Below are positions 513 through 49,431 of a stretch of 64,000 nucleotides of DNA, one piece after another. A program made the translations under genes and the position numbers. Below the pieces are notes generated by a model. That model searched no databases. It was given only the letters and a program-made list of their open reading frames with translations, and was not told where the DNA came from. The DNA comes from Micractinium sp. NFX-FRZ (Eukaryota; Chlorophyta; Trebouxiophyceae; Chlorellales; Chlorellaceae), in NCBI GenBank assembly GCA_029339195.1, contig JAPTJF010000039.1:1-64000 (forward strand), written 5' to 3'. Each line of letters begins with the position of its first letter. The stretch's first letter is position 1.

Positions 513-2945
513 TTAACCAGCCACGCGCTTCTTGATACGCCGCAAGACTGTGAGACCTGCAGCAGGCGAGGTGTTTCTGAGTGAAGCAGCTTGCATTCAT
601 TAGGCTGCCCAGCACACCTAGCGCATCTCACCCGCTCCCCGGCTTCCCCAGCCCACCCACACTTCTGTGCCGCCTGTGCAGCGCCCAGCCACCCCACGCA
701 CCGTTGTTGTTGTGGTACCGCTTGTGCAGCACCCACTCCCCGCTGTGGGCGTCCAGGAATTCGTCGATGGCGGGCTGCAGGCCCTTAGTGATCTCCGCCT
801 CTGGGTAGCCAGACGTCTGGGCCTGCAGGCGATCGGCATCGCAGCAAGGAACGTTGAAGACAGAAGGGTGAACAAGGGGCGCGCTTTGTAGCACGGGGGC
901 AACCTGGACCTGCAAGGTGCTGACAGAGGAACGCGTGTGCAGTGCCCGGGGAGGCGGGCGGGCACATCAGCGCACGACTGGGAACCAAAGCAGTGTCGGG
1001 GCATGTCATGTGGCCCGGGCAGCGAGGCGGCGGGGTGGCAGGCGCCAGCGGGGCGGCACTGTGGGCCCAAGCACAGCCCTGCCAGGCAGTCTGTGCAAAG
1101 CGCCCGCTGGCTGGCTGCCGGCTGCCGCGCTTGCCAGCCAGGCCAATGCTGCAAAGCAGGTGTGTCCTTGGCTGCCAGCTCACCTGCTCTGTGATGTTTG
1201 TGTTGAACCACGGGAGGTCGTCGTCAGCGTTCCTGATGCTCTCGCCCTCTGCAGGCAGGACAGCACGCCGCGGTTGGCCTCAGGACGGATTTTGGCCTGG
1301 TCTGTGCACGCCCCGCCGGCACGCGCACGACACCACCCGCACAGCCAGCCAGCCTGTGCCGGCCCCAGGCAACACTGTTGGTGGGCCTGGTCTCCACCTT
1401 GCACAGTCCCAGCAGGGGCGGGACATGCCTGCCTCCATAGGTGGCAGCAAGGGCCCGCCCCCGCCTCCTTCATCCATCGTGAGCATGCGTCATGCACCAC
1501 CCGGGGAACCTGACCACCGCCAGGCACCCGCACCACGCCAACCACCCTCATCTCTTTGGTACCTGATCACCGCCAACCAGCCGCACGTGGGGGGGGGACA
1601 TTGAACCCACCTTCCCCATCTATCTCGGTGTCATGCATCACAATGTACTTGTTCGCCATCCCGCTGTGCTGCGCCAGCTCCCGCTTCAGGTGCCCGTACA
1701 CGTGCCTGCAGTGCCACATAAGAAGGACACGTCCACGACGTCAGGCCCCACCCAAGGTGAGGCTTCGGCTGGCCAGTGGGGGCGACTGGGGGCGGCGCAG
1801 GGCGGGTCAGCTGGTGTGAGCACCCTCAGCGGTGCCTCATCCCTGGTGCTGCCACTGCTCAGCACGGGGGGTAGGGAGGGGAGTCGCATGCCGAGCGTGC
1901 CCACTTCCGCCCTCCTCGCCCCTGGCCTCCTGCATGATCAGCATCTCACCTTGCCCCATCCATTCCCGCCTCACTCCTCTGCCCACGCCTCTGCCCTCGC
2001 TCCCTCCCCGGCCCCCCGGACCCCCCGCCTCTCATGCGCCCCCGCCCACCAGCCCATCCACCCACCACGTGTCTATGAACAGCAGGTCCACGGGCCAGGG
2101 CAGCTGGAAGGTGGCCGAGTCGTGCTGCACCACGGTCACATTCACGCCCTCCTCAGCCGCGGCCGGCACCAGGCGCTGGAACTCCCAGATTTTTGTGACA
2201 TCCAGGCACAGCAGGCGGCGTGCGGGCTCGCCGTCGCTGGTGTCGGGCGGCACCCGGCTGTCGCGCAGGCCCTTGAGCAGCGCAAAGGTGCTGACCACTG
2301 CGAGCAGCGGGGTACAGGTCAACAGGTGGGCAAGTTTGTCAGCAGCACTGCACAGGCTGTGATGCATTGAGGGACACTTTTGGCCGGAGCGCAGGAATGT
2401 GCAGCATTGCGGGCCACTGCTTGGGGGATGGCAGAGGTGGTGGGCTGGGAAGCGGTGCGGGCTGAGGGGTAGGTTCAAATGGCGGGGGCAGGTGGGGCAG
2501 GGGGGTGGGTTGCATCAAGCAGGGGAGGCAGGACCCTGGAGTGTAGCAAGGAGCGGGCAGGGTGCAGCAAGCAAGTCCACTTCAGTGCAGGCCGGGGAGG
2601 GGCACAGGGATGCAAGTGGGCTGCGGGCACTGGCTCAGTCCGGTACAAGGCCAAGCAACAGTGGAAGGTACAGCCCTGGCCACATGGGAGGCGCGCACCG
2701 CTTCGCACGCCAAACTCTGCCACGGTGCTGCACTCCCTGGCGAGGTGGTAGATGGTGGGCAGGTGCTGGTTGATGTCGCCTGCGGTGCGGCACACCCGGC
2801 GGTAGTGTTTGTCTATGTAGGGGAGGGGGCGCAGGCGGTCAAAGGCCAGCAAGGCCAGCGCGAGCAGCACAAGGGCGGCAGCCGCCTGGCAGGCGCGGCG
2901 GCGAGTGCGCCAGGCACGCTGGGCACGCGCCCAGAGCTTGCTCAT
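513..2945 (-). CDS. Membrane-anchored methyltransferase-like protein
   Basis: Six exons on the minus strand (2945-2699, 2297-2066, 1705-1611, 1248-1184, 822-702, 556-513) join in phase into 267 residues. The N-terminus is basic (RRRAC) and followed by a hydrophobic stretch (about residues 20-36), suggesting a type II membrane protein of the secretory system. Then come VAEFGVRS and STFALLKGL, LLCLDVTK, DLLFIDTWHVYGHLKREL and KYIVMHDTEIDGE. This order (EFGV loop, acidic strand end, FIDT-H-Y, MHDT) is that of Rossmann-fold SAM-dependent methyltransferases related to the Methyltransf_24/CmcI group; substrate unknown. The exon 1/2 join rebuilds Ser-Val-Val-Ser across the intron, supporting the model. 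The C-terminus is short and basic (RRIKKRVAG). It converges on copy A of the Cys-rich family. Confidence 0.82.
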
Positions 2946-47846: not shown

Positions 47847-47851
47847 AAAAA
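47847..47851 (-). terminator. T5 Pol III terminator
   Basis: On the minus strand TTTTT follows the last base of the tRNA 5' half (47856) after only four bases. A run of four or more T is the Pol III stop signal. Confidence 0.75.
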
Positions 47852-47855
47852 TGGC

Positions 47856-47957
47856 TAGGAAAGCAACGCACTATCCGATTGTGCTACGCGGCCCAATTTC
47901 TTGGATATCGAGTGGTCATAACGACCACGGCAGGACTCGAACCTGCAACCTTTGCCT
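47856..47957 (-). tRNA. tRNA-Arg(CCU) gene with permuted halves
   Basis: Read on the minus strand, the 3' half (47957-47922, positions 38-73) comes first, then 28 nt, then the 5' half (47893-47856, positions 1-37). The 3' half has anticodon-stem strand GGCAA, variable AGGTT, T-arm GCAGG-TTCGAGT-CCTGC, acceptor strand CGTGGTC and discriminator G. The 5' half has acceptor GGCCGCG, TA, D-stem GCAC and GTGC round the loop AATCGGATA, G26, anticodon-stem TTGCT and loop TTCCTA with anticodon CCT. The acceptor strands pair at all seven positions (two G-U) and the anticodon stem at all five (one G-U). T8, A14, G18G19, T33, A37, T54T55C56 and A58 are in place; A20 fits arginine identity. B box precedes A box. 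No other half lies nearby to make a normal tRNA from either piece. Confidence 0.88.
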
Positions 47958-48029
47958 GTCTCCTATCGGAAGCGGGTAGCTCCCGCATCGGGATTTGATC
48001 GAATTACCAGCTCCTTATATTAGTTAACT

Positions 48030-49431
48030 GCCACGTCACGCCACGTCAGCAAAATGGCCCTGGGTTCCGGGTTCGATCCTCGCAGGGTTCTTGTTGTGAC
48101 GGGTCACCCACCTGGGAATGCCGATAGACGAGACAACCACTGATTGATCACAAGGCCCGCGCCTGCTCCCCTAGCTGCTAGCGTCATGGTGCCCTGGTTC
48201 TAGCGTCTCTGCTCGGGGTAGGTGAACCTCATCTACCAGCCTCCCCTCGTCAGCCACTCTCCATGGCAGCTCAGCTTGGTGGGCGGCACAACCCCGCACG
48301 CGGCTGCAGCTCTGGCTGATGCGCACCCCTGCTGACACACATGCCGGTGTGTGGGATGCTGGTCGCCGCCAGCTGACAGCTTGCGCGCTGCATGCGCGCC
48401 ACGCTGAGGAGCGCCCATCCAGCAGTCGCCACCCTCCACCGCCTCGCCCCTCACCCACTCAGCTTGTGGCCGGGGCTCAGCGACACGCTATCGCTCGCTT
48501 CTGGGACTGGGAACTGCTTCAAGATCTGCGTGCCCCGACCTTGTGGCTCTATCTAGCTCACGGCAGCAGGGGCGCGGGGTCCCGCCCCGTGTTTTGGCTC
48601 CCCCCACTGCAGTGCCTGCCCGTCTCCCAGTGAGCAGCCTTGGGTAAGTTGCTCTGATCTCGTCCTGCGAAGCTAGCGCGCGCATCTCAATGTTTCATTT
48701 TTTATTTCTTTCTTACCTTGTTTGATTGATTCATTGAGCAGCACAGGGTTGTGCTGACAAGACGTGCAACCCTCCACCAGTCAGGCGGACAGGAAGTCGG
48801 TTATCACGCAGAGGAGCAGAAGCAAGGTAGGGCGTGCTGCCCAGCGAGCATCTTGCCATGCACCAGTCTGCAGGAACAACAACAGAGTGTACCCTTTACA
48901 TGCCAGCCTCGCCGCATTGCTTAACCGCAGCTAGCTGCTGGCTGATGCCATGTCCTACCAGCTCTGATGGCCCAAGCACGTGCACGGGCCGGCTGGGCGG
49001 CAACCCTTGGTGAGGTGGCAGGCAATGGCCGTTTGGTCCCACCACACCCAAACCTGGCCGACAGCCAGGTTTTTACGTTTCATAACCCATTCTTATAACC
49101 TACGCCAGCACAGGCACTGCTGCCGCGTGTGGTGCAAGCCTCGCCTCCCCGCTCCTTGCCTTGCTGCCATGACCATTCCCCACTCCACATTCTTGTTATC
49201 GCAATCGACCCATGGCAGCGCCAGACGAGGGCAGGCAGGGTTTCAGGGCGTTCAATGTGCTAGGGTGAAAACCACAGTGAGCAGGAAAGCCAAACAGAAG
49301 AGCAAGGCACGCTGGCAGAGGCGGCAGCAGAGGGAAGCAGCACACAATGTATTCATGGGTGTGCGGGAGCTGCACAGCGACTTGACATCTATACGCGCCA
49401 ATCATATGAATTGTGACAGGCTGTGCAGGTC
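48030..49431. other. No gene seen
   Basis: About 1.4 kb without a supportable gene. A B-box-like GGGTTCGATCC at about 48069 (plus) has no matching T-stem or A box. A basic reading frame near 49270-49400 (SRKAKQKSKARWQRRQQRE) lacks a start and splice context. The right end is 3' flank of ALADIN; TTACA at 48896 could be its poly(A) signal on the minus strand. Confidence 0.45.

Follow-up and report, generated by a model that had tools for sequence, protein, structure and literature searches.

We identified a well-formed circularly permuted tRNA-Arg(CCU) gene on the minus strand of the window (the whole 64-kb stretch of Micractinium sp. NFX-FRZ DNA that was analyzed). The gene is real, in that the 3' half of the tRNA precedes the 5' half and a complete cloverleaf appears when the halves are exchanged, and it is very probably functional. 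Taken together, the evidence points to a functional nuclear gene of type II (junction 37/38) that is matured via a circular intermediate, a reading to which we assign a probability of about 0.87.

A tRNA-Arg(CCU) gene with exchanged halves

The sequence of 48200-47700, read on the minus strand, contains the tRNA 3' half (positions 38-73; 36 nt, 47922-47957), followed by an intervening spacer of 28 nt (47894-47921), the tRNA 5' half (positions 1-37, with anticodon CCT; 47856-47893) and then, after four trailer bases, a T5 stretch (47847-47851), an RNA polymerase III terminator. The 5' half has 38 nt for positions 1-37 because its D loop has nine bases. The limits of both halves are given by the sequence itself, by ARAGORN, by pairing and by the covariance model R1 described below. 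The window has a G+C content of 65%; among the ten open reading frames scanned in it, one holds an Aladin-like propeller exon that scores under the Pfam cut-off, and two others gave weak leucine-rich-repeat matches.

When the halves are exchanged, all 21 stem pairs of the resulting tRNA-Arg(CCU) are standard: seven in the acceptor stem (five Watson-Crick and two G-U), five in the anticodon stem (one of them G-U), five in the T stem and four in the D stem. By the same check, six of 10 ordinary nuclear tRNAs have one non-standard pair. Reading of the joined sequence also finds the conserved bases U8, A14, A15:U48, G18 G19, A21, U33, the T loop TTCGA and G73, and ARAGORN names the joined halves tRNA-Arg(cct). 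The initial annotation had described the 3' half as lying before the 5' half with 28 nt between them on the minus strand, which proved exact to the base on re-reading, and a T5 terminator after the 5' half, which is present at 47851-47847. Its further claims that seven acceptor and five anticodon-stem pairs form on exchange and that the conserved tRNA positions are then in place are borne out.

An ordinary or intron-containing tRNA gene was considered and rejected: the 3' half comes first, ARAGORN found no tRNA in a 141-nt stretch in native order even with introns up to 3000 allowed, and Rfam at gathering thresholds returned no matches in the 64-kb window, where ARAGORN likewise reported 0 tRNAs.

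The contig that carries the locus is 234 kb long and belongs to a draft assembly (838 contigs, 66.07 Mb), in which the 361 nt around the gene were found once. The joined tRNA sequence matches solely its own two halves when compared with the whole assembly, organelle contigs included; an organellar insertion was rejected, as the joined sequence matches no organelle contig. A draft in 838 contigs could have misordered two ordinary tRNA fragments, but such an artefact is highly improbable at a site inside a contig of this length, with no second copy found as the source of a wrong join and with halves that complement each other in both of the stems they share.

A covariance model of the permuted order

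To obtain a model of the permuted order, ordinary nuclear tRNAs of the same genome were split at 37/38 and rewritten with the 3' half first and 14 N between the halves (model R1). Ten of 12 prepared tRNAs were used for training, Ile and Arg-TCG being excluded for their D-loop length; the gene in the window was absent from the set. From the 20 nuclear tRNAs then known, the preparation had omitted duplicates, class II tRNAs and the single tRNA with an intron. R1 matches 47957-47856 with 59.2 bits and an E-value of 1.5e-15 in the 64-kb window (E-values are rough, from a short calibration), and the next matches within the window reach 8.4 and 8.2 bits. Over 35 of 54 loci, rich in ordinary tRNAs, the best other match was half a tRNA at a contig end, with 30.2 bits. 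R1, built without the gene itself, excludes a chance origin of the permuted cloverleaf over 64 kb. A permuted model made from a genome's own tRNAs can thus separate this gene, at 59 bits, from ordinary tRNAs, which did not exceed 30 bits at any locus searched.

The Rfam model of the bacterial Y RNA YrlA (RF02553) also detects the locus (38.1 bits, E 7.9e-7) and places its parts in the same order; when five loci of ordinary tRNAs were compared with this model, none was matched at E up to 1. YrlA contains a tRNA-like domain (PMC7790460), and alignment to the locus shows that this domain is permuted, with the T-arm before the D-arm. The locus might be read as a non-coding, Ro60-bound Y RNA whose tRNA-like module has the same permuted order, and five of the six pairs of the YrlA outer stem are indeed standard here. 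However, the score is far below the gathering score of 69, the inner Y stem keeps just one standard pair out of seven, with the bases for the other six absent, and no TROVE/Ro60 domain was matched at E up to 1 when the genome was scanned exon by exon, in a search that detected the control from Deinobacterium chartae. The anticodon arm of the locus is, moreover, complete, with U33, CCU and A37, none of which a Y RNA needs. We consider a Y RNA a very remote alternative to a permuted tRNA gene.

The 37/38 junction and its leader pairing

The halves meet at 37/38, the commonest junction in green algae, so that the break falls after position 37, the normal intron site, as the initial annotation had it. 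Its claim that a leader strand, TAGGAG (47965-47960), pairs with loop positions 32-37 and leaves an ACA bulge also stands, as a possible pairing: six consecutive pairs, one of them G-U, can form with positions 37-32, and the ACA left as a three-base bulge (47957-47959) contains the predicted cut, between C (47958) and A38 (47957). Equally good pairing in this exact register is offered by 0.19% of the 127,984 8-mers of the window and by 0.23% of 200,000 random 8-mers. No outer helix was seen at the junction on inspection, and the junction therefore resembles the relaxed hBH form that Soma 2014 gives for green algae (PMC3978253). By the pairing rules, it forms a bulge-helix motif in this relaxed form, at which cleavage is predicted. 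The tRNA-Arg(UCU) gene of the same genome has its intron after position 37 as well, and a G at intron position -3 could pair with base 32, as read by hand. This gene (contig C21, 132004-132094, minus strand), which ARAGORN calls tRNA-???, has one non-standard anticodon-stem pair, T29/C41, by the same reading.

In the predicted fold of the precursor, a seven-pair hairpin (47967-47985, minus strand) lies just upstream of TAGGAG and may insulate the splicing site. The predicted minimum-energy fold of the single strand favors a hairpin between spacer and acceptor strand (-35.7 kcal/mol) over the cloverleaf with the leader helix (-29.0 kcal/mol). In this hairpin (47912-47928, minus strand), GACCAC of the spacer complements GTGGTC of the 3' acceptor strand around a GTTAT loop. 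We take the hairpin as noise, because single-strand prediction also misses the cloverleaf in eight of 10 ordinary tRNAs of the same genome and because shuffling the spacer gave an equally good match to the reverse complement of the 3' half in 138 of 500 cases. On the strength of the same shuffles, we dropped the idea of GACCAC as a decoy designed to pair with the acceptor strand.

Transcription signals and proposed maturation

The locus is laid out as one transcription unit, with a T-stretch after the 5' half and a spacer that lacks a terminator; no runs of T4 or longer occur in the 3' half, the spacer or the 5' half, and the leader has one TTTT, which begins 97 nt before the 3' half. For comparison, we used 15 of the 20 nuclear tRNA genes; the other five were set aside, in part because they are truncated at contig ends. 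A stretch of T4 or longer is found within 40 nt downstream in 14 of these 15. No clear promoter is seen. TATAA at 48015-48019 (minus strand), 62 nt upstream of the 3' half, is a possible promoter element; it is farther away than the 50 bp given for Cyanidioschyzon merolae (Soma 2014, PMC3978253). Two of the 15 ordinary genes have TATA within 120 nt upstream, at -58 and -62. The A+T content of the 80 nt upstream of the permuted gene (0.50) is unremarkable beside the 0.35-0.55 of the ordinary genes.

We suggest that RNA polymerase III would produce a single transcript that extends from the leader through the 3' half, the spacer and the 5' half to the T5 stretch. On folding, the anticodon and acceptor stems would bring the two halves together, the leader would pair with positions 32-37, and the tRNA-splicing endonuclease could then cut on the 5' side of A38 and on the 3' side of A37. 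Joining of 37 to 38 by a tRNA ligase would close the RNA into a circle, with the spacer connecting positions 73 and 1. RNase P, probably the protein-only PRORP, and tRNase Z would process the ends of the tRNA by excising the spacer from the circle, and after addition of CCA and charging, the mature tRNA would read AGG. Genes for several of these enzymes are present in the genome. The catalytic domain of the tRNA-splicing endonuclease (PF01974) was found at two loci, on contigs C185 and C18, both above the Pfam cut-off; RtcB-like exons lie on C265 and C74, and PRORP exons on C588 are above the cut-off when combined with neighboring exons.

Among the origins proposed for permuted genes is a tandem duplication whose outer halves are then lost (Soma 2014, PMC3978253), and the locus could be a permuted relic that is not expressed. 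Its expression is predicted from sequence, and a stretch resembling a tRNA 3' half is found nearby on the opposite strand. Nevertheless, the 21 stem pairs are intact, the leader is complementary to positions 32-37 and T5 is in place. The flanks also show no similarity to the halves: 486 of 500 shuffles score as high as the upstream sequence does against the 5' half, and 376 of 500 as high as the downstream sequence against the 3' half. Any outer halves can thus no longer be recognized, whereas the inner ones are intact. If mutation eroded the outer halves, selection has preserved the inner ones; the argument is weaker if the outer halves disappeared in a single step or were never present. We set aside a tandem-array remnant, given flanks without recognizable outer halves beside intact inner halves, and regard an unexpressed relic as unlikely.

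The nearby stretch (48063-48090, plus strand, upstream of the permuted gene) resembles a tRNA T-arm and 3' acceptor strand. Aligned locally with the reverse complement of the 3' half, it scores 26, a value that one of 500 shuffles reached, and R1 matches its T-arm with 8.4 bits. No 5' half to go with it was seen by eye, and it is perhaps a tRNA relic. The reading of the locus as a permuted tRNA gene is supported as a better fit than an ordinary gene, an intron-containing gene, a relic or a Y RNA.

Arginine isoacceptors and the nuclear tRNA set

The initial annotation had suggested a search of the rest of the genome for a normal tRNA-Arg(CCU). None was found, in a search that was not exhaustive: neither a second copy of the gene nor an ordinary tRNA-Arg(CCU) appeared among the 63 of 639 RF00005 first-look candidates that were scored or in DNA queries. 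The alga's own arginine isoacceptors and a human tRNA-Arg(CCU), used as queries across the assembly, pointed to no other place, and an Arabidopsis tRNA-Arg(CCU), used without a positive control, gave no match. The nuclear arginine isoacceptors found were TCG and ACG, by ARAGORN, and TCT, by hand.

The RF00005 search lists 64 tRNAs, 20 of which lie outside C837 and C838, two contigs taken as organellar. On C838 we also noted a sulfate-transporter ATPase of the CysA kind, above the cut-off, and a TilS-like protein under it. Together with the base composition and the Aladin-like exon of the window, these are in keeping with a Chlorella-like trebouxiophyte. Raising E to 10 gave the same 64 matches. 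The list is incomplete, since it rests on 63 of 639 candidates and since two tRNA-Pro(AGG) genes that a DNA query found later are absent from it. DNA queries with plant and human tRNAs, which could have revealed further permuted genes, recovered only Lys, Trp, Pro and Glu genes, all of them ordinary; most such queries matched nothing, so that a missing match does not imply a missing gene. Plant and human initiator tRNA-Met sequences, for instance, gave no match. In all, only 22 nuclear tRNA genes were found in the 66.07-Mb assembly (20 by RF00005 and two more by DNA query). So small a number could be due to the limits of the searches, to sequence divergence or to additional permuted genes.

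Two other features of this set deserve mention. Two identical tRNA-Ser(GCT) copies on C714 (248-328, plus strand, and 689-769, minus strand) are inverted, lie 360 bases apart and share the same short flanks, and are either a real palindrome or an assembly fold-over. A tRNA-Leu(TAA) gene on the 506-kb contig C5 (370915-371000, minus strand) gives the impression of being bacterial or organellar in type and has no T4 within 40 nt downstream.

Relation to known permuted tRNA genes

Soma 2014 counts 34 permuted genes in six algae and one archaeon and describes the circular intermediate (PMC3978253). The prasinophyte genes tabulated there are close to the gene described here: they too are nuclear green-algal genes with a 37/38 junction, of the relaxed hBH type and with no intron, and their spacers of 11-64 bp compare with 28 here. 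They differ in that the permuted arginine tRNA listed is UCU rather than CCU, and in that expression was tested for them, whereas for this gene it is predicted (PMC3978253). Cyanidioschyzon merolae has a permuted tRNA-Arg(CCT) with the same amino acid and anticodon, but its junction is 59/60 (type IV), its spacer is 23 bp and it has an intron at 14/15, whereas the gene here has a 37/38 junction and no intron (PMC3978253). The permuted tRNA-Arg(CCU) gene of this alga is an arrangement independent of that one. Two more permuted tRNA genes are described for the Amorphochlora nucleomorph (PMC4494063).

The initial annotation knew of no permuted tRNA gene established in this kind of alga. The novelty that this implies is unsupported: permuted tRNA genes were reported in 2025 from the trebouxiophyte Auxenochlorella UTEX 250-A (PMC12633428, PMC12636532), and the lineage is therefore probably not new for such genes. 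As in our case, the Auxenochlorella genes are permuted nuclear genes of a core chlorophyte that a standard tRNA finder missed (PMC12636532). No further report from Trebouxiophyceae was recognized among the papers that the literature searches listed, as judged by title, abstract or term counts.

Implications

Permuted tRNA genes are rare, and earlier examples come from a few algae and a single archaeon. The gene described here adds a well-formed case, from a green alga with a 66-Mb genome, on which ARAGORN and Rfam are silent at default thresholds; that both missed it supports the view that green algae have more permuted tRNA genes than have been counted. More tentatively, at somewhat less than an even chance, we propose that the alga has no other source of tRNA-Arg(CCU), so that reading of AGG by its cognate tRNA would depend on the circular pathway, and that this gene belongs to a larger set of unannotated permuted tRNA genes, several in number, that standard finders have missed across the nuclear genomes of core chlorophytes (Chlorella-like algae). 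A permuted gene as the sole one for its anticodon has been seen in T. pendens, and is not a requirement. If this gene is indeed the sole tRNA-Arg(CCU) gene, the importance of the circular pathway would be testable in a living alga.
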